Origin: Roseobacter sp. HKCCD6576-2 | Lineage (GTDB): Bacteria; Pseudomonadota; Alphaproteobacteria; Rhodobacterales; Rhodobacteraceae | Assembly (NCBI RefSeq): GCF_013179285.1 | Contig: NZ_WVNW01000011.1 | Location: 1 to 37,808, forward strand | Reading direction: 5' to 3' | DNA: 37,808 nt | Part shown: in pieces, positions 3,119 to 33,255 of the stretch | How the letters are laid out: each line of letters starts with the position of its first letter | Numbering within the stretch: position 1 is the first letter of the stretch | Made by a program: the position numbers and the translations under genes | Notes under the pieces: generated by a model | What the model was told of the DNA's origin: nothing | What the model saw: only the letters and a program-made list of their open reading frames with translations | Database searches by the model: none

Positions 3119-3153
3119 TTGCCCTGTAGGGGTGCTGCTGAGGGAGGATTGTC

Positions 3154-4140: not shown

Positions 4141-4168
4141 CCGGCATACAGACCAAGGGAGGAAGACC

Positions 4169-5131: not shown

Positions 5132-5137
5132 GGTAGT

Positions 5138-5165: not shown

Positions 5166-5196
5166 GTTCTCTTGGGCGGTTGCAGCCTCTGAACGA

Positions 5197-7004: not shown

Positions 7005-7006
7005 AT

Positions 7007-7894: not shown

Positions 7895-7895
7895 C

Positions 7896-9787: not shown

Positions 9788-10554
9788 TGTGGCTATCGGC
9801 TAATCTGGGGTTTCTGTTCACTGACTTGTCTTTGCCGGAGGCAATCCGCACCGCCAAGGCGCAGGGTTTCGACGCTGTGGAATGTCATTTCCCGTTTGAT
9901 CAGCCTGAGGCGGAGGTGTCTGCCGCCCTGAAGGAGACAGGCCTGCCGATGCTGGGCCTGAACACTTGGCTCGGCGACCGCGCGGGCGGGGATTTTGGGT
10001 TGTGCGCCTTGCCGGACAGACGCGAGGAGGCGCGGGCTGCAATAGATCAGGCGATTGCCTATGCGCGCAAGATTGGCTGCGGGGCGGTGCATGTGATGGC
10101 CGGTCGCACGGATGGCGCCGCGGAGGCGGAGGCCTGTTTTCGCGAGGCTCTGTCCTATGCCTGCGCCACCGCGCCGGATCTGACGATCCTGATCGAGCCG
10201 CTGAACTACCGTGACGTCCCGGGCTATCATCTGGTGCATATGGACCATGCGGCGCGGATCATCGACGATCTGGGGCAGGCCAATCTGAGGATCATGTATG
10301 ACCTATATCACACGCAAATCATGCGGGGGGATCTGACCGGTCAGTTCACTGTGCATCGGGACCGGATCGGACATATCCAGATCGCCTCGGCCCCAGACCG
10401 GGGCGAGCCGGGGCAGGGGGAGGTTGACCTCCTCTGGCTTTGCCGCTGGCTGGAGGGCGAGGGTTGGCACAGGCCGATCGGTGCAGAATACAAACCTCGT
10501 CAAGGCGAGACTTTGGCGGGACTAGGCTGGATGACAGCCTTCAAAGACCAGTAA
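9787..10554 (+). CDS. otnI: 2-oxo-tetronate isomerase (hydroxypyruvate isomerase-like)
   Basis: 255 aa from the ATG that overlaps the otnC stop. It has the xylose-isomerase-like TIM barrel of the Hyi family, with the metal-site segment IEPLNYRDVPGYHL, then MYDLYHTQIMRGDL and a C-terminal GAEYKP. OtnI interconverts 2-oxo- and 3-oxo-tetronate, linking the two dehydrogenases to OtnK. It is the last gene of the operon. A GTG three codons upstream is in frame but less likely. Confidence 0.87.
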   Translation: MWLSANLGFLFTDLSLPEAIRTAKAQGFDAVECHFPFDQPEAEVSAALKETGLPMLGLNTWLGDRAGGDFGLCALPDRREEARAAIDQAIAYARKIGCGAVHVMAGRTDGAAEAEACFREALSYACATAPDLTILIEPLNYRDVPGYHLVHMDHAARIIDDLGQANLRIMYDLYHTQIMRGDLTGQFTVHRDRIGHIQIASAPDRGEPGQGEVDLLWLCRWLEGEGWHRPIGAEYKPRQGETLAGLGWMTAFKDQ

Positions 10555-11524: not shown

Positions 11525-12838
11525 TCAGTTTCCTAGGCCGGGAAGCCACAACGCGAGCGGAGGGAAAAGCACCAGGAGAACCACGAGCAAAAGCGAACAT
11601 AGGATGAACGGTATTGCCGCCGAATAAATCTGCCGCATCGTTGTGTCCGAGGGCGCAACGCCCTTCATGACAAACAGAAGCAGCCCAAAGGGCGGAGTGG
11701 TAAAGCTGATTTCCAGTGCCAAAAGCATGATCAGGCCAAACCAGATGGGGTCAAAGCCAAGGGTCAGTGCCAGCGGGAAGAAGATCGGGACAGTCAGCAT
11801 CATCATCGAGATTTGCTCCATGAACATGCCGAGGATCAACAACACACAAAACATGATGGTCAGCATATAGATCGGGTCGAGCTCAAACCCTGTGGCCCAG
11901 CTGATCAGGCCACGGGATGCGCCGGAAAAGGCAAGCAACTGGCTGAAGGTCGCAGAGCCAAATACGATGAGATAGGCCATCAGCGTTACCCGGAGCGCGC
12001 CGCGGATCGACGTCTTTATCGCGGTCCAGGTGAGGCACCGGTAAAAGAGTGCGAGAATTAGGACACCCAGCGCGCCGAAAGCCGCCGCTTCGGACGGGGT
12101 TACAATGCCGTTGATCATCATGACAACGATCACAACCATGAGGCCGATCATCGGTATGACATCGCGCACAAGCAGGCCGATTTTTTTGGAAACGGTCTGG
12201 TGTTCGACCTCATAGGGAGGCGCGGCGGTGGGATCCATACGCGTTTGCAGAAAGATCGTACCGATATAGAAGGCCGCAAGGATCAGTCCGGGGATGACGC
12301 CAGCGATGAGCAAGGCACCCACATCAATCTGGGCAAGTGTCGCCAAGAGCACGGCGAGGGCGGACGGCGGGATGATGATGGCAAGGCCGCCGGTTCCAAG
12401 AATGGGCCCGATGGACATGTGTTTCTTGTAACCTCGCCGGGTCATCTCGGGGACCATCAAGGAGCCCAGAAGAGCAGTCGAGCCCATCGACGACCCCGAC
12501 AGGGTTGAAAAGCCCGTACCGCCGAGGACCGTCACGTAGCTGAGTCGCCCCGGTAGACGGCCCAGAAGCCGGTCGATGGCCGAGAACATGCGACTGCCAA
12601 GGCCTGTGTGAAAGAAGATCTCACCCATCAGCAGGAAGAGCGGAATGGGAACCAGAGCGAATTTTGAGAGCGATCCCCAGCCATTGTTCAAAAGCGCAAC
12701 AATCCCGCGCTCACCCCCCATAAATACCCAAGCCCCAATGATGTTCGCGGCTAAAAAGGCCAGCGCCACCGGCATGCCGAGTGCCATGAGCGCCATGATG
12801 CTGCCGATGAGCAGCGCGAGGGACTCGTACCATTCCAT
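11525..12838 (-). CDS. dctM: TRAP transporter large permease (DctM family), second system
   Basis: 437 aa, many membrane helices, with family signatures PIPLFLLMGE near residue 60 and LAIIIPPSALAVLLA near 150. It is the last gene of the leftward operon regulator-leuC-leuD-dctP-dctQ-dctM. Its start overlaps the dctQ stop (TAATG). IS remnants begin right after its stop, so any further downstream gene has been lost. Confidence 0.92.
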   Translation of the reverse strand: MEWYESLALLIGSIMALMALGMPVALAFLAANIIGAWVFMGGERGIVALLNNGWGSLSKFALVPIPLFLLMGEIFFHTGLGSRMFSAIDRLLGRLPGRLSYVTVLGGTGFSTLSGSSMGSTALLGSLMVPEMTRRGYKKHMSIGPILGTGGLAIIIPPSALAVLLATLAQIDVGALLIAGVIPGLILAAFYIGTIFLQTRMDPTAAPPYEVEHQTVSKKIGLLVRDVIPMIGLMVVIVVMMINGIVTPSEAAAFGALGVLILALFYRCLTWTAIKTSIRGALRVTLMAYLIVFGSATFSQLLAFSGASRGLISWATGFELDPIYMLTIMFCVLLILGMFMEQISMMMLTVPIFFPLALTLGFDPIWFGLIMLLALEISFTTPPFGLLLFVMKGVAPSDTTMRQIYSAAIPFILCSLLLVVLLVLFPPLALWLPGLGN

Positions 12839-13356
12839 TATTCGTGGATCCCTGCTTCGCCCGAATGCATGAACTCGCTTCCAAACACGAAACGGGCGAA
12901 CTCAATGGCCATGAAGCTGAATGCAATGGGGAATGTGATGGTCAGCATCCAGCGTGGATAGAAGTAGGCGCGGACGTCATAGTCGTTGCGCTCGACATTG
13001 GTCACGAAAAGCTCGAGCCCGTACCAGGCGAGGATAAGCGAGACCAAAACACAGGCCGCCGCAACACCCCGGCTTACGATGTGACGCAGGGCCGGGCTCA
13101 GTGCCGAGGTGACCAGTTCGATATGGACATGACCCCGTTCGCGCACCAGCTTCGGCGCACCGAGCATGGTCATGTAAAGAATGCCGTATTCGGCTGAGGT
13201 AAAGAGCCAGGCCCAGGGTTGAATGCCGAGGTTGCGCATGGCGACGGACAGGACAATCGAGACCATCAGCCAAACAAGCATTCCTGCGGCGATCAGGGCC
13301 ATGAAGTTTAGTATGGCGTCATAGATCCGGATCAGCGCTTGCATAGGAACCTTCAA
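12838..13356 (-). CDS. dctQ: TRAP transporter small permease (DctQ family), second system
   Basis: 172 aa with four predicted helices and a DctQ-type middle (PWAWLFTSAEYGILYMTML, then GHVHIELV). It pairs with the DctM encoded immediately downstream. It lies 51 bp after dctP, separated by a strong hairpin. Confidence 0.88.
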   Translation of the reverse strand: MKVPMQALIRIYDAILNFMALIAAGMLVWLMVSIVLSVAMRNLGIQPWAWLFTSAEYGILYMTMLGAPKLVRERGHVHIELVTSALSPALRHIVSRGVAAACVLVSLILAWYGLELFVTNVERNDYDVRAYFYPRWMLTITFPIAFSFMAIEFARFVFGSEFMHSGEAGIHE

Positions 13357-13364
13357 GTACAGTT

Positions 13365-13392
13365 CGGCCCGGAGCCGATGCGCTCCGGGCCG
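13365..13392 (-). other. dctP-dctQ intercistronic hairpin, second system
   Basis: CGGCCCGGAGC (13365-13375) and GCTCCGGGCCG (13382-13392) form a perfect 11-bp GC-rich stem with a 6-nt loop in the dctP-dctQ gap. There is no T-run on the transcribed strand, so message stabilisation or partial attenuation is more likely than full termination. Confidence 0.75.
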
Positions 13393-13407
13393 GTGTGATT
13401 AGCTAGC

Positions 13408-14421
13408 TCACCGGTCGGCGGCAGGATCGTAAAACAATTCAATCAAGCGATCGTAGTTTGCGGTTCCCACGGGGTGTTCTGCCATCAGCTCCTGCATCCG
13501 CTTCCAGGTCTTTTCGCGTGCAGCAAGGAGGTAGGCAGCTCTCGCGTCTCCTTCGAGCGAGACGACGTTCATGCCCTGAGCATCCAGCGCGGCGAAGTCT
13601 TCGTCACGCTTGGTGCGAAGTGCGTTCACGCTGTCGATCTCGTGCTGGATAGCGACATCTTGAACAATCTGACGCGCTTCGTCCGAGAGTTCATTCCAGC
13701 GATCGAGGTTCACGATCACGCCGAGGTCCGTCGAGAAGAAGCAGGGGTCGATCCGGTAGTTCAGGAACTCGTTCCACTTCAGGTCGATTAGGCCGATCTG
13801 GGTCCAGCCGGTAGCGTCAACGACGCCGCGCTGAAGTGCCGCGTAGACTTCGCCGGTTGGCAGGTCAATCACCTGAGCGCCGAGATAGTTGGTGAAGAAG
13901 GCGTTGTAGACCGCGTTACCGCGGAGTTTCAGACCTTCAACTTCGAGGTTGCCGCCAGCGTCGAAGGTCGGTGCTTCGCGGGTCCAGAGGTTGTAACAAA
14001 CGCCGCTGTCGAACCAACCGACATACTTGAGGCCCATCTTTTCCTGATGGATCTCGTCGATCAGCGCGATGCCGCCATTCTCACGTGTTTCAATGGCTGT
14101 CAGATTTGAGGCCACGAGGGCGTCCTTCTCAGGGAGAGCGCCGCCGTAGAATGAGCCCGGCGTATACACCATGTCGACAATACCGTCGCGTACGGCGTCT
14201 GGCTGCTGGAACATTCCGATGGCTTCCGGTCCGCCACGCACCTCGATCTGAACGACGCCTTCACCAGCTTCGTTCACCTTTTCGACAAATGACAGGAAGC
14301 TCTGCGTGTAAATCAGCGTTTCCGGAAACGCATGGACAGCAGTGATCGTCTCTTCCGCCTGTGCCACGGCCCCAATGATCATGGAGTTGGCGACGATACC
14401 AGCAGCGAGTTGCATCTTCAT
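13408..14421 (-). CDS. dctP: TRAP transporter periplasmic binding protein (DctP family), second system
   Basis: 337 aa with a signal peptide ending near AVAQA (residue 22). The conserved carboxylate-binding Arg is R167 (GLKLRGNAV), followed by YAALQRGVVDATGW. A strong ribosome binding site (AGGAGGAA) precedes the ATG. Co-transcription with a LeuCD-type hydro-lyase suggests a di- or tricarboxylate ligand, perhaps an alkyl-substituted maleate or malate; this is inferred. Confidence 0.9.
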   Translation of the reverse strand: MKMQLAAGIVANSMIIGAVAQAEETITAVHAFPETLIYTQSFLSFVEKVNEAGEGVVQIEVRGGPEAIGMFQQPDAVRDGIVDMVYTPGSFYGGALPEKDALVASNLTAIETRENGGIALIDEIHQEKMGLKYVGWFDSGVCYNLWTREAPTFDAGGNLEVEGLKLRGNAVYNAFFTNYLGAQVIDLPTGEVYAALQRGVVDATGWTQIGLIDLKWNEFLNYRIDPCFFSTDLGVIVNLDRWNELSDEARQIVQDVAIQHEIDSVNALRTKRDEDFAALDAQGMNVVSLEGDARAAYLLAAREKTWKRMQELMAEHPVGTANYDRLIELFYDPAADR

Positions 14422-14491
14422 GGGTAGTTCCTCCTATCCTCCGTGCCAGTGCCCTGGCGCCTAACGTGGCGAGCTATGGTGAAGCCCGCAG

Positions 14492-15109
14492 TCATCCAGC
14501 GGTTTCCTCTGCCGGAAACACCCACGGCAACATCCGCGCGCGCCGTGCCCGATATTCCGAGATAGCGGGGCAGTGGTGTTCTGTGAGGTCGATGTCATCC
14601 CACCCGTTCATCAGCTTTTGGGCCCACGCCCCGCTGAGAGTAAAGGGAATGTTCTGGCCACCGACCGTTATTCTTGTTGTTTCGATATTGAGGTTTAGCT
14701 CGACTTGGCCATCGCCGATCAAGGCGATCAGTTGGGCGGCATCTTCTTCGCTGATAAGCGCTGGAAGAAGGCTGTTGTTCACGGAGTTCGAGGCGAAGAT
14801 GTCACCGAAACTGGGGGCAATGACGGCGCGCATGCCGTAATCGACCAAGGCGTAAACGGCGGCTTCGCGGGATGATCCGCTGCCAAAGTTGCGGCGTCCA
14901 ACAAGAATACTGGCTGTCGGATGGCGATTAATCGGGAAGTGCGGATCCGGAGCGCCCTCGTTGTCCGTTCGCAGATCATGAAACAGGTATTTGCCGTAGC
15001 CATCGGCTCGCGTCGTCGACATGAACCGCGCCGGGATCAGCTGGTCCGTGTCGACATTTTCGATGTCGAGCGCAATCGCGGTGCCCTTATGCTCAGTCCA
15101 GCCCTTCAT
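14492..15109 (-). CDS. LeuD-like small subunit of an aconitase-family hydro-lyase
   Basis: 205 aa, the swivel domain of isopropylmalate isomerase type, with VDTDQLIPARFM near residue 20 and NFGSGSSREAAVYAL near 75. It complexes with the LeuC-like subunit whose gene overlaps it (ATGA). In a catabolic operon with a GntR regulator and a TRAP importer it is unlikely to be the biosynthetic LeuD; two-subunit relatives include maleate hydratase and 2,3-dimethylmalate dehydratase. I leave the gene symbol open. Confidence 0.85.
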   Translation of the reverse strand: MKGWTEHKGTAIALDIENVDTDQLIPARFMSTTRADGYGKYLFHDLRTDNEGAPDPHFPINRHPTASILVGRRNFGSGSSREAAVYALVDYGMRAVIAPSFGDIFASNSVNNSLLPALISEEDAAQLIALIGDGQVELNLNIETTRITVGGQNIPFTLSGAWAQKLMNGWDDIDLTEHHCPAISEYRARRARMLPWVFPAEETAG

Positions 15110-16500
15110 GCGGCGTCCCGTCCTTTAAGCATCGGGCGGACATCGGTCAGGTGTCCGGTGACAGCAGCAGCGGCAACCATTGCGGGCGACATCAGATGCG
15201 TTCGAGCTCCGCGACCCTGCCGGCCGCGGAAGTTGCGGTTAGTCGTGGATGCACAGCGCTTTCCCGGCCCAACACTGTCGCCATTCATGGCAACGCACAT
15301 TGAACATCCGGACCGAGCCCATTCAAGGCCGGCGTCGGTGAAGATACGATCCAGTCCTTCAGCTTCGGCCTGAGACTTGATTTGCTGCGAGCCGGGCGAC
15401 ACCAGCCCCGGTACCTTGGCCCGGCGGCCCGCCAGTACAGCGGCGGCGGCGCGGAGGTCTTCGATACGGGCATTCGTGCAGGAGCCAATGAAGACCTGAT
15501 CGATCTGCACCTCGGTCAGCGCCCTGCCTGGTGTCAGTCCCATGTAGTCGATTGCCGCGGTCACACGTTCAGCCTCAGCGTCGGGGACAGCGCTTGGGCT
15601 CGGCACCTTTGCTGTCACTGGCAAGGCGTCCTCGGGCGACGTGCCCCAGGTCACGATTGGCGCGATATCAGTGGCATCTATGCTCACATCACGGTCAAAT
15701 TCGGCGTGGGAATCGCTCTGAAGTGTTTTCCAGTACGAAACCGCCTTGTCGAACGCCGCGCCCTTGGGCGCGTAAGGCCGGTTTTGGATGTAATCAAGGG
15801 TAGTGTCATCCGGCGCGATTATGCCAAACCGCGCGCCGCCTTCGATTGAGAGGTTGCAGAGCGTCATTCGGCCTTCCATCGACAGGGTGCGGACCGCATC
15901 GCCTGCATACTCGACCGCGTGTCCTTGGGCGCCGCCGGTCCCCAGCTTTGCAATCCAGGCAAGCGCGAGATCCTTGGCTCCGACACCCAGAGCCATTTTC
16001 CCAGTTACCGTGATCCGCATCGATTTCGGCTTACTCTGCCAGATCGTCTGGGTCGCAAGGACATGCGCAACCTCAGTTGCGCCGATTCCGAAGGCCAGCG
16101 CACCGAAGGCGCCGTGAGTCGACGTGTGGCTGTCGCCGCAGTTAATCAGGAGACCCGGCAGCGTCAGGCCCTGTTCGGGGCCGACCACATGGACGATGCC
16201 TTGACGCGGATCCTTGAGGCCGAAGCATGTCACGCCATGCGCCGCCGCGTTGTTCTCGAGCGTCTTGATCATCCGCGCAATTGCGGGGCTGGCCGCCGCG
16301 CCTCGCGTAGGCGCATAGTGATCAACGACGCCAAATGTCAGGTTGGGTTCCGCCACGCGCGCTCCGCGCGCGGCAAGCTTGGCGAAGGCGTGATGCGAAC
16401 CCTCATGTACCAGATGCCGATCGACCCACAGAAGAGACCGCCCCTCTTCGCTCCGAAGGATCTCATGGGCGTCCCAAAGCTTATCAAGGAGCGTCGTCAT
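15106..16500 (-). CDS. LeuC-like large subunit of an aconitase-family hydro-lyase
   Basis: 464 aa from the ATG at 16500, which overlaps the regulator stop. All three [4Fe-4S] ligands are present: C341 in GSCTN, and C399 and C402 in SGCSMC. NCGDSHTSTHGAFGALAFG and the C-terminal STTNRNFRGRQG are also intact. Length and motifs are those of bacterial LeuC rather than the ~420-aa archaeal/DmdA type. The enzyme would add or remove water across a dicarboxylate double bond. The operon points to catabolism; candidate substrates are maleate, citraconate or alkylmaleates. True isopropylmalate isomerase remains possible. Confidence 0.87.
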   Translation of the reverse strand: MTTLLDKLWDAHEILRSEEGRSLLWVDRHLVHEGSHHAFAKLAARGARVAEPNLTFGVVDHYAPTRGAAASPAIARMIKTLENNAAAHGVTCFGLKDPRQGIVHVVGPEQGLTLPGLLINCGDSHTSTHGAFGALAFGIGATEVAHVLATQTIWQSKPKSMRITVTGKMALGVGAKDLALAWIAKLGTGGAQGHAVEYAGDAVRTLSMEGRMTLCNLSIEGGARFGIIAPDDTTLDYIQNRPYAPKGAAFDKAVSYWKTLQSDSHAEFDRDVSIDATDIAPIVTWGTSPEDALPVTAKVPSPSAVPDAEAERVTAAIDYMGLTPGRALTEVQIDQVFIGSCTNARIEDLRAAAAVLAGRRAKVPGLVSPGSQQIKSQAEAEGLDRIFTDAGLEWARSGCSMCVAMNGDSVGPGKRCASTTNRNFRGRQGRGARTHLMSPAMVAAAAVTGHLTDVRPMLKGRDAA

Positions 16501-17360
16501 ATGTCGCGCGCTCCGATCACTGGTTCCCAATGGCGGGATTCCCCCGCCCCTATGCGGGTCATACTCATTTCCAACCGGAACCTGTCTGGTCTGTACAAAG
16601 CAGACAGGTGCTCGACCCCACGTCCATTCGAATCACGGACGACTCTCTCGAGCCAAAGCAGCGGCGAGCCGACAGACACCTCAAGCGCCTCGGCCACGTC
16701 AGGCCCGGCGAGCGTTGCCGTCACCGATTGATCTGCACCTTCGACTTCAACCCCGCTCCTCTCCAAGAGCCGGAACAAGGGCTGCGTGGCGAGGTCCATC
16801 TCATCGTAATTCCGGGCGATGTCTTCGGGCACATGCGTCGTCAGGTGCGAGAATGGCTCCCCGTCCGAGAGGCGCACCCGAACGGCGGTCTGAACGCGCC
16901 CGTCCTTGGCAAGCCCAAGCGAAGCGGCGACAACTTTCGATGGAACCCCGTACGAGAATGACAGTAAATGAGCCGTTGTTTTGCGATCAAATTCAACGAG
17001 TTGAGGTATCAAGGTTGCAAAGTTTGCGGCTAGCTTTTCATCTTTGCCGCGCTGTGAAAGAACGACCGACCCGGCACCGGTTTTTTTCTCGATCCACCCG
17101 TCTGCGGCCAGCGCTTCGAGGGCGCGACGCACTGTAATACGGCTGACATTCAGCATCTCTGCCAGGCGGTTCTCGCCGGGTAAGAACTCTCCCTCGGCAT
17201 ATCGTCCATTTGATATATCATCGCGGAGCAACAGGTATACCCGGCGCGCTTTGCCGCCTTCGGGAAGTGATGCCTGGGCGTGAATCGTCACCGCCGCATG
17301 TCTCCTGTTCGATGCCGCAACACTGGATCGGTCAAGGGGCCGGTCAACAGAACCTGACAC
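16497..17360 (-). CDS. GntR-family regulator, HutC/UTRA type
   Basis: 287 aa. An N-terminal winged helix-turn-helix (residues about 38-100, with PGENRLAEMLNVSRITVRRA) is followed by a UTRA effector domain (about 125-280, ending ALYRPDRFRLEMS). The first ~35 residues are an unrelated polar leader, so the true start could be internal. It is the first gene of the leftward operon and divergent from the tautomerase/hyuBA operon, so it probably controls both arms in response to a pathway intermediate. Confidence 0.88.
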   Translation of the reverse strand: MSGSVDRPLDRSSVAASNRRHAAVTIHAQASLPEGGKARRVYLLLRDDISNGRYAEGEFLPGENRLAEMLNVSRITVRRALEALAADGWIEKKTGAGSVVLSQRGKDEKLAANFATLIPQLVEFDRKTTAHLLSFSYGVPSKVVAASLGLAKDGRVQTAVRVRLSDGEPFSHLTTHVPEDIARNYDEMDLATQPLFRLLERSGVEVEGADQSVTATLAGPDVAEALEVSVGSPLLWLERVVRDSNGRGVEHLSALYRPDRFRLEMSMTRIGAGESRHWEPVIGARDI

Positions 17361-17376
17361 CTCTTCGGCAATTATT

Positions 17377-17409
17377 TTGACCTTTTCATAATCTAATATC
17401 TGTTATATT
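17377..17409 (+). promoter_or_regulatory. divergent promoter/operator region for the hyu operon
   Basis: A TTGACC hexamer (17377-17382) and TGTTAT (17401-17406) are 18 bp apart, a plausible rightward promoter. Inverted arms AATAT (17395-17399) and ATATT (17405-17409) overlap the -10. Short AT-rich dyads of this type fit GntR/HutC operators. The region is sharply AT-rich against GC-rich surroundings. Confidence 0.4.
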
Positions 17410-17435
17410 GAAAGTACAGATTTTTGGGAGAACAC

Positions 17436-17990
17436 ATGCCGATTGTCGAGGTGCACGTACGCGAGGGCTATTCAGCAGAGAACAAATCACGGCTGGCCGC
17501 TGCGCTTGAAGACACCGTCCGGTCTGTTGTTTGTCTGGACGATGCAGCCGTGACAGTGGTGGTCCAAGAGGCGCCGCCAGAGTGCTACGCGCGGGTTAAG
17601 CCATCCCACTCTCCGGCGCTTCATGACCCGCTTCAGATCGCGCTCGATTTTCTAGCTGCGATGGAGGCCCGCGACATCAAAACCGCAGAGGCCATGTTGG
17701 CGGCCGGGTTTCGGATGACTTTTCCAGGCACCCAACCGATGGCCAGCATCGCGGAGCTGATCGGCTGGGCGAAGGGCCGGTATCAGTTCGTCAGAAAGAC
17801 GATCACCTCTACCGAGGCATTTCATCAGAACGGTCGCGCCATCGTCTATGTGACTGGCACGCTTTCCGGTGCATGGCCCGACGGAGAGCCGTTCGAAGGC
17901 ATCCGTTTTATTGACAGGTTCGAGATCAAGGGCGCCAAACTGATTTGCCAGGACGTCTGGAACGACATCGCCGAGGAACGACAGCAGTGA
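17436..17990 (+). CDS. tautomerase-like domain fused to a SnoaL/NTF2-like domain
   Basis: 184 aa. The ATG at 17436, 6 nt after a GGGAG site, places Pro directly after Met (MPIVEVHVREGYSAENKSRL), as in 4-oxalocrotonate tautomerases where Pro-1 is the catalytic base. This ~60-residue domain is followed (about 68-180) by a cone-like SnoaL/NTF2 domain (DPLQIALDFLAAMEARD, then FEGIRFIDRFEIKGAKL). 4-OT monomers are usually ~62 aa and free-standing, so this fusion is unusual. It probably isomerises an unsaturated oxo-acid or enol intermediate. It heads the rightward operon and overlaps hyuB. Confidence 0.7.
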   Translation: MPIVEVHVREGYSAENKSRLAAALEDTVRSVVCLDDAAVTVVVQEAPPECYARVKPSHSPALHDPLQIALDFLAAMEARDIKTAEAMLAAGFRMTFPGTQPMASIAELIGWAKGRYQFVRKTITSTEAFHQNGRAIVYVTGTLSGAWPDGEPFEGIRFIDRFEIKGAKLICQDVWNDIAEERQQ

Positions 17991-19681
17991 GCGACACAAT
18001 CGATCCCATCACGTTGGCCGTCTTGGCCGGGCGCATGGAACAGATCGCCGACGAAATGGACGCGACGCTTTTCCGAGCGGCGTTCAATCCGATCATTGCC
18101 GAGGCGCACGACGCATCGCATGGGCTCTATCATGCCGACACCGGCGACACATTGGTGCAAGGGAAGTCGGGGCTGCCGATCTTTGTGGGCGTCATGTCCT
18201 TTGCAGTGAAGGCCGTGATCGACAAGGCAGCCGGCGCGGGTGATTTGGCCGACGGCGACACATATATCTTCAATGACGCGCATATGGGGGGCACACATCT
18301 TTCGGATATGCGTCTGGTGCGACCTTATTTCCGGGATGGAGAGTTGTTCTGCTATCTCGCCAGTGTTGGCCACTGGCACGATGTCGGTGGCGCGGTGCCG
18401 GGGAACTACAACCCATCCGCGACCGAAGCCTTTCAGGAGGCGTTTGTTCTGCCGCCGGTCAAGCTGACCCGCCGTGGCAAGATGCAGCAGGACATCATCG
18501 ACATCCTTTTGCGCAACACCCGCCTCCCACAATCGGCGATGGGGGACCTGAACGGACAGCTTGGCGCGCTGGATCTGGGGCAGAAACGTCTGGACGAGCT
18601 TTTGGACGAATATGGCGCCGAAACCGTCAGAGCGGCTTTGGATGCTCTTGGAGATCGTGCGGAGACTTTGATGCGCAGCGAATTATCGGCGCTGCCCGAT
18701 GGGCGTTGGGAAGCCATGGATCACCTCGACAATGATGGGATCACGGACGAAGCATTGCCAATCAAAGTTGCCCTCGAAATCGAAGGTGACCGCATGCTTC
18801 TGGATTTCGAAGGGACAGCACCCAAGACCGCTGGACCGGTCAATATCGCTCTACCAACGGCTGTGGCGACGGCGTATGTGGCGATCAAACACATCTTTCC
18901 GGACCTTCCGGCCAATGCAGGCGTCATGCGCCCGGTTAAGGTTCGGGTTCCCAATAATTCACTGTTGTCAGCGGAATTCCCGGCTCCGGTGGGTGGGTAT
19001 ACCGAGACTATTCTGCGCATGATCGACGTGATCTTTTCAGCCGCGTCGCAGGCCGCGCCGGATCGGGTTGTCGCGAATGCCTATGGCACCATCAACGCAC
19101 TCTCCATTGCGGGCAAACGTGCCAATGGGCAGCCTTGGGTGATGTTCAGCTTTTACGGTGGTGGACACGGCGGCAGCATCGAGAGCGATGGTCTGAATCA
19201 TGGCAACGCGCCGATCTCCACGGCGACAATCCCGCCAATGGAAATCCTCGAAGCCGCTTATCCAGTGATGTTCCGCCAATGGGCGCTGCGGCCCGACAGT
19301 GCAGGTGCGGGGGCGCATCGCGGCGGGTTGGGTGCCGTCTATGAGATTGAAGCCCTTGAAGAAAAATCTGAAGCCTTCCTCTTTGGTGAGCGTGGGCGGT
19401 TTTCGCCGAATGGCGTTGTCGGCGGCGAAGGTGGTGCGATGAACGTCTTTACTTATGAGCAAGACGAAGGCTGGAAAACGCCGCCACTGACGTCGAAAAT
19501 GCTCGGTATCAAGCTCAAGAAAGGTCAGGCCGTCCGGCTCGAAACCCCAGGCGGTGGTGGCTATGGCCCCGCATCCGAACGCGTGCCAGAGGCGGTCGCG
19601 CGAGACGTGGCGCTTGGCTACCTGACATCTGAGAAAGCGACCGAGCTTTATGGTTCGGACTGGACGGAGGCTGGCCAATGA
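17987..19681 (+). CDS. hyuB: hydantoinase B / oxoprolinase-family subunit
   Basis: 564 aa from GTG at 17987 (GTGA overlap, GAGGA site 10 nt upstream). It has the HyuB core: DPITLAVLAGRMEQIADEMD at the N-terminus, HDASHGLY, then GGHGGSIESDGLNHGN and the C-terminal TPGGGGYG. HyuB works with HyuA in ATP-dependent opening of cyclic amides (hydantoins, 5-oxoproline) or, in related complexes, carboxylation of ketones. A third acetone-carboxylase-type gamma subunit is absent, which favours a hydrolase. An upstream in-frame start inside the previous gene is unlikely. Confidence 0.88.
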   Translation: MSDTIDPITLAVLAGRMEQIADEMDATLFRAAFNPIIAEAHDASHGLYHADTGDTLVQGKSGLPIFVGVMSFAVKAVIDKAAGAGDLADGDTYIFNDAHMGGTHLSDMRLVRPYFRDGELFCYLASVGHWHDVGGAVPGNYNPSATEAFQEAFVLPPVKLTRRGKMQQDIIDILLRNTRLPQSAMGDLNGQLGALDLGQKRLDELLDEYGAETVRAALDALGDRAETLMRSELSALPDGRWEAMDHLDNDGITDEALPIKVALEIEGDRMLLDFEGTAPKTAGPVNIALPTAVATAYVAIKHIFPDLPANAGVMRPVKVRVPNNSLLSAEFPAPVGGYTETILRMIDVIFSAASQAAPDRVVANAYGTINALSIAGKRANGQPWVMFSFYGGGHGGSIESDGLNHGNAPISTATIPPMEILEAAYPVMFRQWALRPDSAGAGAHRGGLGAVYEIEALEEKSEAFLFGERGRFSPNGVVGGEGGAMNVFTYEQDEGWKTPPLTSKMLGIKLKKGQAVRLETPGGGGYGPASERVPEAVARDVALGYLTSEKATELYGSDWTEAGQ

Positions 19682-21735
19682 GCCGGATGATCGGCGTCGA
19701 TGTGGGCGGAACGTTCACGGACGTGTTTGTTTTGGACGAGGCTTCAGGAACGGCGGATGTTTCCAAGGTGCCGACCACGCGGCCTGGCCAGTCCGGTGGC
19801 TTTCTGGACGGGATCGCGCGTCAGGTAGACGACCTGTCGACGGTAAACGTGGTCGTTCACGGGACGACCGCCGGGACCAACGCCTTGCTCGAGCGCAAGG
19901 GCGCGAAGATCGGGATCATCACGACCCGCGGGCTCAGGGATGTGCTCGAGATGCGACGGCGCGACCGGCCCCGGACATGGGGTCTGCGCGGCGCGTTCGA
20001 TCCGGTTGTGCCCCGTGATCTTCGACTTGAAGTCTCGGAACGAACCCTGGCCGATGGAACGGTCCGAACGCCGGTCGATCTTGACGAGGTGCGCGCTGCT
20101 GTGGGGACGTTGTTGGCCGCTGATTGTCTGGCGGTGGCCATCCTCTTCGCAAACTCCTATGCCAATTCCGAGAACGAGCAGAAGGCCGTTGAAGCGGTTC
20201 GCGAAATCTGGCCAAATCCGCATGTGAGCGCATCGGCTGAGATCCTGCCGGAAATTCGTGAGTTCGAACGCTTTTCGACCACTTCGTTGAATGCCTACCT
20301 CCAGCCGGAGGTATCGGGATATCTCGACCAGCTCGATACGGCACTGAAAGGTGGTGGGTTTGGCGGCGAGTTCATGATCGTGCAGTCGAACGGTGGCGTG
20401 ATGGGCACCGATACGGCCTGTCGTTTGCCGGTCCGGACGGCACTGTCGGGGCCAGCAGCGGGCGTGATCGCTGCCGGCTACATCGCCCAGACCGCTGGGT
20501 TCGACAATGTCATCACTGGCGACATTGGCGGCACGAGTTTTGATGTCGCGCTCATTTCTGATGGCAAATCGATGTTGTCACAGCAGACATCCATCGACTT
20601 TGGCATGGTCGTACGCGCCCCGATGATCGAGATCACGACAATTGGTGCCGGTGGCGGCTCCATCGCGTGGGTCGACCCGGGTGGCTTTCTGAACATTGGG
20701 CCAGAAAGTGCGGGTTCGACGCCCGGGCCAGTGGCCTATGGTCAGGGCAACACGCGGCCCACGGTTACCGACGCCAATGTCGTCCTCGGACGGATCGATC
20801 CGGACAGCCCGATTGGGGGCAAGCTCGATCGCCTGGATGTCGAAGCCGCAGCCAGGGCGATTGATGACCATGTGGGCACGAAGCTGAACCTGTCGACCGA
20901 AGCCGCGGCGGAAGCCATCTTGCGGGTGGCAAACTCTCGCATGGCGGGCGCAATCCGGCTGGTAAGCATTGAGCGTGGCTTTGATCCCAAGCGGTTTGCG
21001 TTCATGCCCTTTGGCGGCGGCGGCGCACTTCATGCGGGTGCGATACTTCAGGATGTCGGGATCGCCCGGGCGATCATCCCGCGTTATCCCGGCGTGACGA
21101 GCGCCATGGGCTGTGTCATTGCCGACATGCGGCAGGACTTTGTGCAGACGATCAACTCGCTTACTGCGACCTTGGATGTCGATGTACTTGGCAACTGGCT
21201 CCAGGGCCACGTTGACGCAGGCATGGCCCTTCTGGATGCCGCGCAGTCGCGCTTCGAAGCCCGCGAAATCGAGGTCGAGCTGGACATGGCCTATGTGGGC
21301 CAAACGCATACGGTTGCTGTGCCGCTGAAAGTCGCGGTGAAGGACCGGACAGTCGAACCGGCGACAGTTGCAGCAATCGAAGCCGCCTTTGATGCCGCTT
21401 ATGCGGCGACCTTCGGACGTCTTTTGAAGAACGGCGCGCGGCGGGTGATGAACTTGCGGACGGCCGTGATTGGCAAACGCCCGAGATTTGACCTAGCAAC
21501 GCTGGCACCCGAGGGAGGGAATGTGGAGGCGTCGAAGACCGGCAATCGACAGGTCCATTTCGGCAACGCATGGCACGACACTGCGATCTATGACCGGCTT
21601 TCGCTGCCGGTTGGATCTGAGATCGAAGGGCCAGCTATCTTGGTTCAGCCCGACACGACCATTCTTATCGACCCCGGCCTGACCGGGTGCGTCGATTCCT
21701 TCGGAAACACGATTATCGAACCCAGCGAGGCATGA
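19678..21735 (+). CDS. hyuA: hydantoinase A / oxoprolinase-family ATPase subunit
   Basis: 685 aa. The N-terminal ATPase motif is VDVGGTFTDVFVLD (from residue 8); HGTTAGTNALLER and GDIGGTSFDVALI are the other nucleotide and phosphate segments of this ASKHA-type fold, and a metal-type GGGGALHAG lies near residue 448. With HyuB it would hydrolyse a cyclic amide or imide bond at the cost of ATP. The start overlaps the hyuB stop (ATGA). The substrate is unknown. Confidence 0.9.
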   Translation: MSRMIGVDVGGTFTDVFVLDEASGTADVSKVPTTRPGQSGGFLDGIARQVDDLSTVNVVVHGTTAGTNALLERKGAKIGIITTRGLRDVLEMRRRDRPRTWGLRGAFDPVVPRDLRLEVSERTLADGTVRTPVDLDEVRAAVGTLLAADCLAVAILFANSYANSENEQKAVEAVREIWPNPHVSASAEILPEIREFERFSTTSLNAYLQPEVSGYLDQLDTALKGGGFGGEFMIVQSNGGVMGTDTACRLPVRTALSGPAAGVIAAGYIAQTAGFDNVITGDIGGTSFDVALISDGKSMLSQQTSIDFGMVVRAPMIEITTIGAGGGSIAWVDPGGFLNIGPESAGSTPGPVAYGQGNTRPTVTDANVVLGRIDPDSPIGGKLDRLDVEAAARAIDDHVGTKLNLSTEAAAEAILRVANSRMAGAIRLVSIERGFDPKRFAFMPFGGGGALHAGAILQDVGIARAIIPRYPGVTSAMGCVIADMRQDFVQTINSLTATLDVDVLGNWLQGHVDAGMALLDAAQSRFEAREIEVELDMAYVGQTHTVAVPLKVAVKDRTVEPATVAAIEAAFDAAYAATFGRLLKNGARRVMNLRTAVIGKRPRFDLATLAPEGGNVEASKTGNRQVHFGNAWHDTAIYDRLSLPVGSEIEGPAILVQPDTTILIDPGLTGCVDSFGNTIIEPSEA

Positions 21736-21736
21736 C

Positions 21737-22342
21737 ATGATTCGCGCAATTGACCTCAAACGAACGGCACTTCTGACGATCGACCTGCAGAATGACTTTC
21801 TGCAGGTCGAGGGCGCATATGGGCGCGCGGGCCAGACATCCGAGGCAATCTCGGCCTTGCCCGAGCGAATCAAACCGCTGGCCGATGCGCTGCGCGCCAA
21901 GGGTGGTGTTTACATCAGCGCACAATTCACATTGGTTCCTGGACCGGACGGCGAGCCGCTGATCGCGCCGCACCTGAAAGAACTCCGTCCTTTCCTGGGT
22001 AAGGGTGACTTTGCGCCCGGGGCTTTGGGGCATAGCCTTGTTGACGAACTTGCACCCGCGGATTTCACCATCGAGAAGATCGCCTATTCGGCGTTCTACC
22101 AGACGCGGCTGGAGTACATTCTGCGGTATCTCGACATCGACACGCTGATCGTTGGCGGCATAGTCACCAATGGTGGGGTGGCCAGCACCGTTCGCGATGC
22201 GCATTTGCGCAATGTGCACACGATCCTGCTGTCCGACGGCTGTGCCGCTTTCAAGCAGGAGATGCACGATGCCACGCTGGTCTCGCTCGGGTCGATCACA
22301 CCGATCAAGACCTGCGCCGAGATGCTGGAGAAGCTGGCATGA
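21737..22342 (+). CDS. isochorismatase-fold hydrolase lacking the nucleophilic cysteine
   Basis: 201 aa. Isochorismatase-fold signatures are intact: catalytic Asp D16 (LTIDLQNDF) and Lys K114 (IEKIAYSAFYQTRL). The third residue, normally Cys in TN-x-C-V of amide-hydrolysing members such as RutB or maleamate amidohydrolase, is Gly (G147 in TNGGVAST). Loss of Cys is also seen in true isochorismatases (EntB, PhzD), which cleave a vinyl ether without a covalent intermediate. The context suggests a half-amide or enol-type intermediate, but amide hydrolysis by the usual thioester route looks excluded. It overlaps the lyase gene (ATGA). Confidence 0.82.
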   Translation: MIRAIDLKRTALLTIDLQNDFLQVEGAYGRAGQTSEAISALPERIKPLADALRAKGGVYISAQFTLVPGPDGEPLIAPHLKELRPFLGKGDFAPGALGHSLVDELAPADFTIEKIAYSAFYQTRLEYILRYLDIDTLIVGGIVTNGGVASTVRDAHLRNVHTILLSDGCAAFKQEMHDATLVSLGSITPIKTCAEMLEKLA

Positions 22343-23202
22343 GCCTGCGTGCCCGCCTCAAAGCTTCGGAAATCCTTGTTGTACCGGGGGTTTACGACGG
22401 GCTGACGTCGGCGATTGCGGCCGAAGCCGGGTTCGAGGCGCTCTATCTCTCCGGCGCGGCGGTGGCGTATACCCGGCTTGGCCGGCCCGACATCGGGCTC
22501 ATATCGGTTACCGAGATGACCGAAACCATGTCGCTGATCCGCGACCGTGTCGATTTGCCGGTCATCGTGGACGCCGATACCGGGTTCGGCAACGCGTTGA
22601 ATGCTCAGCGCACCATGCGGTTCTTCGAGCGGGCTGGCGCGAGTGCGTTGCAGGTCGAAGATCAAACCTTTCCCAAGCGCTGTGGCCACTTGTCCGATAA
22701 GTCGCTGATCCCAATGGAAGAGATGACGGGCAAGATTGCGGCCATTGCCGATGCGCGCACCAGTGACGAAACGCTGATTATCGCGCGCACCGACGCGATT
22801 GCTGTTGAGGGCTTTGATGCGGCGCTGGAGCGGGCGAACGCTTACGTCGCCGCCGGTGCCGACGTGCTCTTTATCGAAGCGCCGCGCACCGGCGACGAGT
22901 TACGCAAAGTACCAAAACACTTCAACGGGCGTGTACCTCTTCTTGTGAACATGGTCGAAGGGGGAGCGACGCCCTTACAGGGCGCACCGGGTCTTGAAGA
23001 GATCGGGTATTCGATCGCCATCTTTCCCGGCGGTATTGTCCGGGCTTTGGCCAAGACGGCGGGCGAGTATTACGCCAGCCTGAGGGCCAACGGATCGAAC
23101 CGCCCATTTGCGGATCGAATGTTTGATTTCGATGGCCTGAATGATCGTATCGGCACCAGTGAGATGCTCGCGCTCGGGCAGAACTACGAAGACAAGAAAT
23201 GA
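22339..23202 (+). CDS. isocitrate lyase/PEP mutase-family C-C lyase
   Basis: 287 aa TIM barrel. Metal-binding acids sit in VDADTGFGN (D78, D80), and the lyase-type catalytic loop KRCGH (K113-H117, Cys C115) is intact. The loop Cys marks C-C bond lyases such as methylisocitrate lyase and 2,3-dimethylmalate lyase, as opposed to phosphonomutases. Such an enzyme would cut a 2-substituted malate into pyruvate (or glyoxylate) and a carboxylic acid. It complements the LeuCD-like hydro-lyase on the other arm, which could supply a malate-type substrate. Confidence 0.85.
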   Translation: MSLRARLKASEILVVPGVYDGLTSAIAAEAGFEALYLSGAAVAYTRLGRPDIGLISVTEMTETMSLIRDRVDLPVIVDADTGFGNALNAQRTMRFFERAGASALQVEDQTFPKRCGHLSDKSLIPMEEMTGKIAAIADARTSDETLIIARTDAIAVEGFDAALERANAYVAAGADVLFIEAPRTGDELRKVPKHFNGRVPLLVNMVEGGATPLQGAPGLEEIGYSIAIFPGGIVRALAKTAGEYYASLRANGSNRPFADRMFDFDGLNDRIGTSEMLALGQNYEDKK

Positions 23203-24593
23203 CAGCCGTCCGGCCAACACCGTCCGCAGGTTTCGACCTTGCGGTGCCAGTCCTTGTGATCGGCGCCGGCGCCAGCGGTATGGTTGCGGCGCTGTCGGCA
23301 GCGGACAATGCTGGCGAGGTTCTCGTGCTCGAAGCTGATGCCGTCCCGTCTGGATCAACAGCTTTGTCCGCCGGCCTGATCCCTGCTGCAGGCACTTGCT
23401 TTCAGACAGCGGTGGGCATTGAGGACGCGCCGGGCCTGCTTGCCGAGGATATCCAGCGCAAGGCCAACGGTGAAAACCCCCAGCACCTGGTGGACACGCT
23501 TGCCGGTGACGCGGGGCAGGTGATCGAATGGCTTGCGGAGCGGTTCGATCTGCCGTTCTCGGTCGTGACGGATTTCGACTATCCCGGTCATTCGCGGCGC
23601 CGCATGCATGGGCTTCCGTCGCGCTCGGGTCAGGAGTTGGTGGATCGGTTGCGCACCGCTTGCGAGGCGGAGGGCATCGATATCGTCTGTGGCCGGCGCG
23701 CTGTGACGGTGTTTCAGGATGGCGCGCGGATCACGGGGGTCGAGGTCGAGGGGCCTGAAGGCGCCGAGCGCATCGGATGTCACGCCCTGATCCTTGCCTG
23801 CAACGGGTTCGGCGGCAATCGCGAGATGGTGGCAAAGCATATGCCCCAGATCGAAGGTGCGCTCTGGTTCGGCCATGACGGCAACAAGGGCGATGCCGTG
23901 CATTGGGGTGAGGCGCTTGGAGCCGAGAGCCTACATCTGGGCGCGTATCAAGGTCATGGCAACGTTGCGACTCCGCACGGGGTCTTGATCAGTTGGGCCG
24001 TGATTACGGCGGGTGGCGTGCAGGTGAATACCGAAGGCGAGCGGTTCTGGGACGAAAGCCAAGGCTATTCTGAGGCCGCGCGTGCCGTCCTGTCGCAACC
24101 GGACGGTATTGCCTGGGCCATTTTCGATGCGCGCATCGCCGATATCGCGCGACAGTTTCAGGACTTCAAAGACGCCGAAGCTGTCGTAGCCCTACGCAGC
24201 GCCGGGACCATCGCCGACCTCGCGAAGATTTGCGATCTGCCCAAGGCAGCGCTCGAGCAGACACTGGACGCCATTCCCGAAGACGGAAAAGACCAGTTTG
24301 GCCGGCTCTTCACCGGACCCGGCCTCAAGCCGCCTTATATGGCGGTGAGAGTTACCGGGGCGCTTTTTCATACGCAGGGCGGCTTGAATATCACCTCTGA
24401 CGCCCGGGTGAAACTTAAAAATGGCAAGACATCCCCGAACCTCTTTGCCGCGGGTGGCGCGGCTGTGGGCGTTTCGGGAACCGGAGATCGCGGATACCTG
24501 TCTGGCAACGGACTCTTATCCGCTGTGGTATTGGGACGCATCGCGGGGCAGCACGCCGCCGCACAAACACGAATGGGGTTATCGGATGCTTGA
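23199..24593 (+). CDS. FAD-dependent oxidoreductase, fumarate reductase/ketosteroid dehydrogenase-like
   Basis: 464 aa. The N-terminal FAD motif is GAGASG (residues 22-27), then GSTALSAGLIPAAG; the middle has GGVQVNTEGERFWDE, and the C-terminal FAD loop is SGTGDRGYLSGNGLL. Soluble proteins of this group reduce or desaturate a C-C bond next to a carbonyl or carboxylate (fumarate reductase, tricarballylate dehydrogenase, ketosteroid dehydrogenase). No signal peptide or cytochrome domain is seen. In this operon it may remove or create an alkene in a dicarboxylate intermediate. It overlaps both neighbours. Confidence 0.82.
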   Translation: MTAVRPTPSAGFDLAVPVLVIGAGASGMVAALSAADNAGEVLVLEADAVPSGSTALSAGLIPAAGTCFQTAVGIEDAPGLLAEDIQRKANGENPQHLVDTLAGDAGQVIEWLAERFDLPFSVVTDFDYPGHSRRRMHGLPSRSGQELVDRLRTACEAEGIDIVCGRRAVTVFQDGARITGVEVEGPEGAERIGCHALILACNGFGGNREMVAKHMPQIEGALWFGHDGNKGDAVHWGEALGAESLHLGAYQGHGNVATPHGVLISWAVITAGGVQVNTEGERFWDESQGYSEAARAVLSQPDGIAWAIFDARIADIARQFQDFKDAEAVVALRSAGTIADLAKICDLPKAALEQTLDAIPEDGKDQFGRLFTGPGLKPPYMAVRVTGALFHTQGGLNITSDARVKLKNGKTSPNLFAAGGAAVGVSGTGDRGYLSGNGLLSAVVLGRIAGQHAAAQTRMGLSDA

Positions 24594-24691
24594 TTCAACG
24601 AAATCGGAGCGTGGGCCTTCTTTGGCGCGATGCAACTGGGAAGACCCTTTTGGCCTGACCACGCAGCTCTGCAATGACGAACGGATGATTC
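24586..24691 (+). pseudogene. acyl-CoA dehydrogenase, 5' end only, cut by a transposon terminus
   Basis: An ATG overlapping the stop of the FAD gene by 8 nt opens MLDSTKSERGPSLARCNWED, then PFGLTTQLCNDERMI. The NWEDPF--L--QL--DERMI pattern is the conserved N-terminus of glutaryl-CoA dehydrogenase-type enzymes. After about 35 codons it runs into TGTCGCTTGG, the end of a TniQ-type transposon. The original operon thus had at least one more gene, with CoA chemistry, and this copy of the pathway is probably incomplete. Confidence 0.7.
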
Positions 24692-24786
24692 TGTCGCTTG
24701 GCACTTAATTGTAAGATTGCGGCGGTTCTTGATAGGCTGGGCAGTTAATTTGAGACTATCTGTGTCGCCAGTCCCAAATTAACTGC
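24692..24786. mobile_element. terminus of a TniQ-type transposon (copy 1)
   Basis: The end starts TGTCGCTTGGCACTTAA; the copy at 36302 starts TGTCACTTGGCACTTAA. Within it GCAGTTAATTTGAGACT (24741-24757) and AGTCCCAAATTAACTGC (24770-24786) are inverted repeats matching at 16 of 17 positions around a 12-bp spacer. The right arm also encodes the last residues of the leftward TniQ gene. Repeated TTAATT-centred sites near an end suggest transposase binding sites of a Tn7/Tn5053-like element. Confidence 0.65.
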
Positions 24787-25412
24787 ATCTGGCGAGGGCC
24801 TGGCAGTCCGAACGGCGGGTTGATCAGATGGTCGGTTTCTTCGATGAACCGGTTTCTGTTATGTCCGAAGGTATGCGCCTGAAGCATCTGCAACACTTCC
24901 GGGCCTGCGCGCTCCACGATGGCGACGCCAGCCAGGAGTGCGGGTCGGATATGGAGTGGCACAATTGGATGCTTGGGCGAGGGCGGGAACGATCCCTCTC
25001 TGGCGATGATCTCGTAGAGGTTTGGTATGACGGCACCGAGAACTCTATAGCGCCAGAGTTTGGCGTCGCGCGGGAATGGCCAGGGCACTCTGCGTATTAG
25101 AAGGAGACAGGCGAGTTTCAGAGGTGATGTCCAGGTTTGGATGTCGCGTTCTGCATCATCTTGGAGCAGGTTCTCTCCTCGAAGTGCGGCGGCACGATAT
25201 TGATCGAACGGACGGCCGCGGTCGCATTGACCCAAGTTTTGGAACGGCCGACCGCAATGCGGGCAAGTGATCCGCCATCCTTGCCGATCACAACGCAGGA
25301 TTGGTCCTGGATCGGAATGACCGGAGTTGCAGCCCGAGCATCGTTGTATGGGTTTCTTTGAGATGAACCGATGTGCGGAGCTCTGAACGTTGGCAAAGGT
25401 CATCTGGTGCAC
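24756..25412 (-). pseudogene. TniQ-family transposition protein, C-terminal part
   Basis: Up to 218 aa open. A zinc-finger-like block (RCSGCN, then ITCPHCGRPF) precedes a helical tail (LKLACLLLIRRVPWPFPRD, RPALLAGVAIVERAGPEVL). TniQ helps target selection in Tn5053- and Tn7-like transposons. The N-terminal half and any TniA/TniB are missing; upstream sequence is an ScpB remnant. The last ~43 residues are repeated at 36344-36473. Confidence 0.7.
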
Positions 25413-25459
25413 GGCTTGGCATCAGTCGAGAACATCTCCGCCAGACGGCCAGCCTAGTC

Positions 25460-33210: not shown

Positions 33211-33255
33211 ACCAAAAGGGCGCCGGGGAGTGCGCCGCTCATAGGGAGGACAATC

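Follow-up and report, generated by a model that had tools for sequence, protein, structure and literature searches.

Eubacterium barkeri ferments nicotinate by way of a dimethylmaleate hydratase (DmdAB) and a 2,3-dimethylmalate lyase. The adjacency of hydratase and lyase genes that marks such a dimethylmaleate pathway is also found in a gene cassette of Roseobacter sp. HKCCD6576-2, where the two enzymes are accompanied by a HyuAB hydantoinase-type enzyme, an isochorismatase-fold protein and a tripartite ATP-independent periplasmic (TRAP) importer. The cassette occupies positions 11525-24708 of contig C3 (NZ_WVNW01000011.1), which was analysed over its whole length of 37,808 bases (the window) and belongs to a 4.4-Mb genome. 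It comprises two divergent operons around a shared 75-bp intergenic region, with twelve tightly packed genes and a thirteenth, broken gene at the plus-strand end (Table 1). A sequence-only reading of this DNA had described the two operons around an AT-rich region, and its gene list held up: GntR/UTRA regulator, LeuCD and TRAP genes in one arm, and a tautomerase-SnoaL fusion, HyuB, HyuA, a Cys-less isochorismatase-fold protein, a KRCGH lyase and a flavoprotein in the other. We conclude that the cassette is a real, widespread and undescribed catabolic unit, built from known enzyme families in a combination that we did not find in print.

From the gene content, gene order, conservation, reading-frame overlaps and residue changes presented below, we infer each reaction, the reaction order and the substrate. 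We propose tentatively, with slightly less than even confidence, that this co-inherited cassette converts a nitrogen-ring carboxylate to pyruvate and, probably, glutarate. One GntR-type regulator would control the cassette, and the TRAP system would import the carboxylate carrying the nitrogen ring. The flavoenzyme would set a C=C bond next to the ring carbonyl, HyuAB would open the cyclic amide or imide with ATP, as in the chemistry of its family, and the Cys-less isochorismatase-fold protein may aid ammonia release, possibly with the neighbouring carboxylate of the substrate as the nucleophile. Ring opening and ammonia loss would give a 2,3-disubstituted maleate, which the LeuCD paralogue, again by its family chemistry, would hydrate to a substituted malate, and the PrpB-type lyase would split the latter into pyruvate and a dicarboxylate, most likely glutarate. 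A class III CoA-transferase would convert glutarate to glutaryl-CoA and a dehydrogenase would take this on to crotonyl-CoA, a step for which the genome of the window would have to rely on intact copies elsewhere.

We explored the conservation of the two arms by seeking lyase orthologs in 147 genomes, 36 of which gave a match at E 1e-60 or better, and took the regions around 20 of the 21 other genomes in which the best lyase copy was at least 53% identical. The same twelve genes are found in the same order in ten of these 20 regions (L034, L035, L037-L042, L044 and L046). Both arms are also present in L043, with a different TRAP set downstream, while L036 is cut by a contig start and L048 and L049 carry the Hyu, isochorismatase-fold and lyase genes with a LeuC of 38-39% identity. 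A second set of named genomes consisted of the best 80 of at least 578 lyase relatives, selected with an alignment built in part from cassette lyases and so biased toward the cassette; counts out of 80, and out of the 54 loci with at least 9.9 kb on either side, refer to this set only. Some counts include apparent duplicate contigs (L035/L058, L037/L078, L041/L088 and L036/L065). HyuA, HyuB, the isochorismatase-fold gene and a LeuC-type hydratase occur together in 50 of the 54 well-flanked loci, with the LeuC-type gene in all 54, the flavoprotein in 48, and LeuD and GntR in 47 each. Such an arrangement, with identical gene order in 10/20 regions and both arms in 50/54 loci, is far beyond chance. 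The two arms are therefore not independent in most genomes, and the suggestion from the sequence alone that HyuAB, the Cys-less isochorismatase fold, the LeuCD hydratase, the isocitrate lyase (ICL)/PrpB-type lyase and TRAP form one catabolic unit is supported. The genetic distances of seven cassette genes (without DctM) are correlated in 21/21 pairs (rho 0.66-0.89, with 0/200 permutations as high), a correlation inflated partly by the shared descent of the organisms.

Comparison of the loci indicates which parts of the cassette vary. Neither a tautomerase nor an MmgE/PrpD gene is present in 13 of the 54 well-flanked loci, thus both are accessory. Of the importers, DctM (at least 60% identity) is found in 32/80 named loci and a branched-chain-type ABC binding protein in 25/80, never together, and so the importer is swapped while the enzymes stay. 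The same swap with retention of the enzymes is seen on annotated plasmids of Sulfitobacter, Roseomonas, Azospirillum and Neorhizobium. Carriers of the cassette are numerous among marine and soil bacteria and include Rhodobacterales, Azospirillum, Methylobacterium, rhizobia, Stappia and others, on chromosomes or plasmids; Sulfitobacter pontiacus and Azospirillum oryzae are two culturable examples. Tistrella has a Hyu-less form with racemase-family genes. Four variants (L143, L147, L105 and L109) have two extra genes of the Asp/Glu/hydantoin racemase family, and L143 and L147 additionally carry a tautomerase-type gene, a second flavoprotein and an old-yellow-enzyme gene, together with MmgE/PrpD genes.

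No other part of the cassette is as constant as the hydratase and the lyase. In at least 98% of 78 loci, LeuC has retained its Fe-S cysteines (C351, C409 and C412). The lyase is a member of the PEP mutase/isocitrate lyase superfamily, with K113, C115, G116 and H117 in at least 98% of 111 loci. In the same proportion of these loci it has VEGG in place of the TEFG of aligned methylisocitrate lyases (Val206 and Gly208 for Thr and Phe) and retains Phe178 and Pro230, which in PrpB form the methyl pocket; no paper on this pocket was found in our literature search, most subscription journals being outside its coverage. From sequence, the C3 substituent of the substrate could not be told from the lyase pocket. 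Alternatively, the cassette could combine an extra isopropylmalate isomerase (LeuCD) and a methylisocitrate lyase with HyuAB genes that have nothing to do with them. Both hydratase subunits do exceed the NCBI isopropylmalate dehydratase cut-offs (NF009116, TIGR00170, NF002458 and TIGR00171), and prpB is the best family model of the lyase, which however reaches only 290.5 of the required 354.4 bits. Moreover, the association with Hyu is constant, no leuA or leuB was recognised in the annotated loci, and the genome contains two further LeuC/LeuD pairs, on C34 (with an ordinary LeuD sequence) and on C6. We regard this alternative as quite improbable. Given the catabolic operon context and the two further pairs, the LeuCD pair of the window is probably catabolic and not for leucine synthesis.

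The C6 pair is part of a GntR-TctCBA-LeuC-LeuD-lyase set (L159:7608-14532) with a tricarboxylate transporter, a LeuC of 59% identity and a lyase paralogue of 39%, and looks like a minimal hydratase and lyase pathway for another substituted maleate or malate. A hydratase of 35-40% LeuC identity stands beside the lyase in 8/80 named loci; in L102, L104, L115, L125, L129 and L131 (about 8.2-10 kb) such a hydratase replaces LeuC/LeuD just before the lyase gene. Since the lyase is thus accompanied both in the C6 set and by unrelated hydratases, hydratase and lyase form a recurring pair. An orphan lyase gene, 71% identical to that of the window, lies at L045:6979-7824 with no cassette gene in its 20-kb region.

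The end of the plus-strand operon bears on the second product of the lyase. The start of an acyl-CoA dehydrogenase gene had been noticed here; the gene start is present, and its identity is now of the glutaryl-CoA dehydrogenase type, broken after about 37 codons. The fragment matches the start of a dehydrogenase of 404-406 residues, which is intact at the same place in seven relatives (L054, L055, L071, L072, L076, L082 and L084) and always has an 8-nt overlap with the flavoprotein gene, as in the window. A class III CoA-transferase gene comes next in six of the seven, and the seventh contig ends 425 nt on. The operon dehydrogenase matches 4w9u (688 bits), Burkholderia glutaryl-CoA dehydrogenase (3gnc, 598 bits) and the human enzyme (1siq, 529 bits), and has the DSGYRS and YEGTH motifs in common with 3gnc and 3eom. 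The CoA-transferase matches 4ed9, whose substrate is not established (511 bits), and the human glutarate CoA-transferase SUGCT (290 bits). An ordinary gcdH-caiB pair of the same make-up is also encoded in the genome of the window, on C20. Because this dehydrogenase-type gene and the CoA-transferase end the operons of the relatives, the pair suggests that the lyase yields pyruvate and glutarate. Of the proposal made from the sequence alone, cleavage to pyruvate and a short acid, the formation of pyruvate and an acid is plausible, and the acid is probably glutarate.

The compound degraded could instead be smaller, such as an alkylmaleimide (dimethyl- or methylmaleimide, for instance), a lactam or a piece of a heterocycle, and give pyruvate and a short monocarboxylic acid, with the dehydrogenase pair as unrelated cargo. 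The logic of HyuAB, LeuCD and the lyase would be unchanged, a named dimethylmalate lyase (3fa3) is among the solved relatives of the lyase, and the dehydrogenase is missing from most loci. However, the identical 8-nt overlap in seven relatives and the window is hard to explain as cargo. In addition, Arg167 of the binding protein DctP is retained in all 43 orthologs that are at least 60% identical, which fits a carboxylate ligand. This arginine points to a carboxylate group on the imported compound, and simple alkylmaleimides have none. We consider such a smaller fragment a serious but unlikely substrate.

If the products are indeed pyruvate (C3H4O3) and glutarate (C5H8O4), the substrate of the lyase would be C8H12O7, 2-methyl-3-(2-carboxyethyl)malate. 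We assume the methyl group because the pocket resembles that of PrpB; a substrate lacking it would yield glyoxylate and glutarate. One step back from this malate would be the substituted maleate and, one step further, the cyclic imide hematinic acid (3-(2-carboxyethyl)-4-methylmaleimide), an oxidation product of heme and chlorophyll. Hematinic acid would be degraded by imide opening, ammonia loss, hydration to 2-methyl-3-(2-carboxyethyl)malate, cleavage to pyruvate and glutarate, and conversion of glutaryl-CoA to crotonyl-CoA. Hematinic acid, or else dihydrohematinic acid or a closely related pyrrolic fragment from heme, chlorophyll or bilins, is the boldest candidate for the actual substrate, speculative and on balance rather unlikely. 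The old-yellow-enzyme genes are found in two variant cassettes (L143 and L147); the L147 protein is NamA-like, below the cut-off, and matches the N-ethylmaleimide reductase and bilirubin reductase models more weakly. PMC6018153 cites an Escherichia coli heme-degrading protein as releasing hematinic acid. These genes and the cited protein are hints for hematinic acid and no proof. The literature search yielded no paper on the cassette, and none on the catabolism of hematinic acid by bacteria. It also gave no support to an isonicotinate/citrazinate route through cis-aconitate and isocitrate, which we discarded. Relative to the sequence-only reading, whose general logic was largely right and whose interpretation was partly supported, the present analysis adds the glutarate link and the candidate substrate.

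We compared the ring-opening and ammonia-releasing proteins with their families. HyuA and HyuB are both recognised by Pfam, and the caprolactamase beta model scores 315 bits, far under its cut-off of 1000. An acetone-carboxylase-like role of HyuAB seems less likely, no third subunit having been seen. The isochorismatase-fold protein retains Asp16 and Lys114 of the catalytic Asp-Lys-Cys triad of isochorismatase-family cysteine hydrolases, and the Cys is replaced by Gly147 in all 88 loci that cover the site. Its predicted model (mean pLDDT 91.8) matches biuret, triuret and ureidoacrylate hydrolases first, followed by VibB and maleamate amidohydrolase. Classic physical-organic work has shown that the amine of disubstituted maleamates is driven out by the adjacent carboxylate unaided; a Cys may therefore not be needed here.

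The same protein bears on two other routes. In a hydantoin or carbamoyl route, a racemase (where present) would be followed by an ATP-dependent hydantoinase and an isochorismatase-family carbamoylase; the racemase-family genes of some variants fit this route, and N-carbamoylsarcosine amidase and biuret hydrolase are fold relatives. However, carbamoylases use the Cys that is Gly in 88/88 loci, racemase genes are present in just 6/80 loci, and the hydratase and lyase would have no role. The route is very improbable, and we rejected it mainly for the missing Cys. In a pyridine-type route, the ring opened by HyuAB would be a six-membered lactam, for instance tetrahydro-6-oxonicotinate. The enamine thus formed would be hydrolysed by the isochorismatase-fold protein, much as true isochorismatases act on an enol ether, and the carbon would exit through glutaryl-CoA. 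We keep this route as an improbable rival. True isochorismatases likewise have Gly at the Cys position, the isochorismatase VibB is among the fold matches, and the glutaryl-CoA dehydrogenase-type gene would fit the exit. A Mo-hydroxylase set also lies 5 kb off in the window, and a 6-hydroxynicotinate reductase gene near the cassette of Sulfitobacter sp. S190. Yet there is no task in this route for the hydratase and lyase, present in 54/54 loci (the lyase by selection), and the Mo-hydroxylase set lies apart from the cassette, with an AbiE pair and a remnant in between, and does not recur beside it in the annotated relatives viewed.

The accessory tautomerase fusion begins with Met-Pro in at least 95% of 58 loci. 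The flavoprotein differs from flavocytochrome c fumarate reductases in its substrate and proton-donor arginines (Arg402 and Arg544 of those enzymes), and its model score is below the cut-off. Tyrosines stand in their place, Tyr290 in 81/81 and Tyr433 in 80/80 loci covering the sites. Ketosteroid dehydrogenases use tyrosines. In the proposed pathway, the flavoenzyme may introduce the C=C bond.

The shared intergenic region has a GC content of 30.7%, compared with 58.4% for the window, and contains an inverted repeat that directly precedes the tautomerase gene. A similar palindrome precedes this gene in relatives: 37/49 regions agree with the consensus at 14 or more of its 20 positions, compared with 0.8% of shuffles, in a test that is partly circular because the consensus was derived from the regions scored. 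A genome-wide scan for the pattern (up to 2 mismatches) gave one match, at the expected site, and the reversed control pattern also gave one; the scan shows merely that the genome has no second good site. The conserved palindrome between the arms suggests that the GntR protein probably rules both arms through this putative operator.

Several observations weigh against the proposed pathway, in addition to the isopropylmalate dehydratase scores of LeuC and LeuD. Among the 20 regions, L053 has Hyu and lyase genes without LeuC, L051 and L052 have the lyase and a 38% LeuC without Hyu, and L045, L047 and L050 have the lyase with neither; in the remaining 4/54 well-flanked loci (L108, L124, L130 and L133), LeuC occurs without Hyu. 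HyuAB is a broad family, and ATP-dependent ring opening by it is not certain. Fold matches of the flavoprotein are headed by urocanate and fumarate reductases, with ketosteroid dehydrogenases only from rank 24, and the literature search found no published assay of any cassette enzyme. As to glutarate, the solved structure that best matches the operon dehydrogenase, 4w9u, carries no more specific name than 'acyl-CoA dehydrogenase', and no NCBIfam model is above its cut-off (226.9 of 470 for glutaryl-CoA dehydrogenase). The dehydrogenase is present in only 7/65 named loci with the flavoprotein, four of the seven being near-copies, and a glutaryl-CoA dehydrogenase-type gene is present anyway in 76/80 genomes of the family. 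In the dehydrogenase tree, the operon label needs two changes, and 0% of bootstrap trees need only one; six operon copies form one supported clade with L084 apart, and three non-operon copies fall inside the larger clade. L163, L164 and L175, the nearest of the distant glutaryl-CoA dehydrogenases, stand among the operon copies but have other surroundings, which makes one ancient member of the operon less likely. The dehydrogenase and transferase pair appears to have joined the operon at least once, perhaps twice.

Table 1 Features of the cassette in the window.
Feature	Position	Strand	Evidence
DctM, TRAP large permease	11525..12838	-	Pfam DctM 2.4e-78; TIGR00786 above cut-off
DctQ, TRAP small permease	12838..13356	-	Pfam DctQ 2.2e-18
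DctP, TRAP solute-binding protein	13408..14421	-	Pfam DctP; best solved relative 4mnc/4mni
LeuD-like small hydratase subunit	14492..15109	-	Pfam Aconitase_C; TIGR00171 161.8 bits (cut-off 116.25)
LeuC-like large hydratase subunit, ATG at 16500	15106..16500	-	Pfam Aconitase; NF009116 723.8 bits, TIGR00170 644.5 bits, both above cut-off
GntR/UTRA regulator	16497..17360	-	Pfam UTRA and GntR; HutC model below cut-off
Shared intergenic region, 75 bp, 30.7% GC	17361..17435	.	Base composition
Operator-like inverted repeat ATCTGTTATATTGAAAGTACAGAT	17398..17421	.	Palindrome, conserved in relatives
Tautomerase-SnoaL fusion, ATG at 17436, Pro after start Met	17436..17990	+	Pfam Tautomerase 6-56, SnoaL_2 75-172
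HyuB, probable GTG start at 17987	17987..19681	+	Pfam Hydantoinase_B 1.7e-168
HyuA, ATPase-type N-terminus DVGGTFTDVF	19678..21735	+	Pfam Hydantoinase_A 1.2e-87
Isochorismatase-fold protein, Gly147 replacing catalytic Cys	21737..22342	+	Pfam Isochorismatase; predicted model, fold matches
PEP mutase/isocitrate lyase family C-C lyase, KRCGH loop	22339..23202	+	Pfam PEP_mutase 2.4e-44; prpB model 290.5 bits, below cut-off 354.4
Flavocytochrome-c/urocanate-reductase-like flavoprotein without heme domain	23199..24593	+	Tyr290, Tyr433 replacing two substrate arginines
Glutaryl-CoA dehydrogenase-type gene, ATG at 24586, broken after about 37 codons	24586..24708	+	Intact copies in relatives

Five of the six plus-strand junctions are overlaps of 4 to 8 nt and the other is a 1-nt gap, and the GntR-LeuC and LeuC-LeuD junctions overlap by 4 nt each. 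To the left of the cassette, a separate locus at 2014-10554 (LacI, epimerase, TRAP, 3-hydroxyisobutyrate dehydrogenase-like, SBD/NBD kinase, class II aldolase and TIM-barrel genes) resembles a four-carbon sugar-acid locus. To the right, an AbiEii/AbiEi type IV toxin-antitoxin pair (25785-27513) adjoins the broken dehydrogenase, the junction having the appearance of a past insertion, and a reading frame near the broken gene (24756-25421) has no Pfam match. The Mo-hydroxylase of the window (XdhABC type, 29502-36277) is TetR-controlled and has its own TRAP system. On the Sulfitobacter sp. S190 plasmid (L148 and L212), a Mo-hydroxylase, the 6-hydroxynicotinate reductase, UPF0280 and two 'amino acid synthesis' genes adjoin the cassette, with bacteriochlorophyll genes further along.

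Annotation assigns parts of the cassette to leucine synthesis, hydantoinase and isocitrate lyase, and so misleads pathway predictions. The proposed products, pyruvate and glutarate, would make the substrate testable. The isochorismatase-fold group with Gly for Cys and the double-Tyr flavoenzyme group pose new questions for enzymologists. Should hematinic acid prove to be the substrate, the final stages of heme and chlorophyll mineralisation would have known genes, a dedicated tetrapyrrole-finishing set with a Cys-free amide hydrolase using substrate-assisted catalysis.

Comparison with the described systems indicates what the cassette shares with each. Like E. barkeri nicotinate fermentation, it pairs a hydratase of the aconitase family with a subsequent lyase of the ICL/PEP-mutase family, to give pyruvate and an acid. 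However, we recognised no enamidase, methyleneglutarate mutase or methylitaconate isomerase in the cassette, which instead has HyuAB, the Cys-less isochorismatase fold, the tautomerase fusion and TRAP, is found in aerobic hosts, and probably yields glutarate rather than propionate. The lyase resembles PrpB of the 2-methylcitrate cycle in family, KRCGH loop, Phe178, Pro230 and the expected pyruvate product, whereas it falls under the prpB cut-off and has Val206/Gly208 for Thr/Phe, and the operon lacks prpC and prpD, with MmgE/PrpD relatives occurring in variants. HyuAB has both subunits and the N-terminal ATPase motif of ATP-dependent hydantoinases, caprolactamase and 5-oxoprolinase but is far from the caprolactamase beta model, and its partners in the cassette match no HyuAB pathway that we know of. 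Maleamate amidohydrolase NicF and the biuret and triuret hydrolases share the fold, Asp16 and Lys114 with the cassette protein, in which their catalytic Cys is Gly. Finally, the dehydrogenase beside a class III CoA-transferase is the arrangement of the gcdH-caiB glutarate pair, as in the C20 copy, placed in the relatives at the end of the cassette operon.

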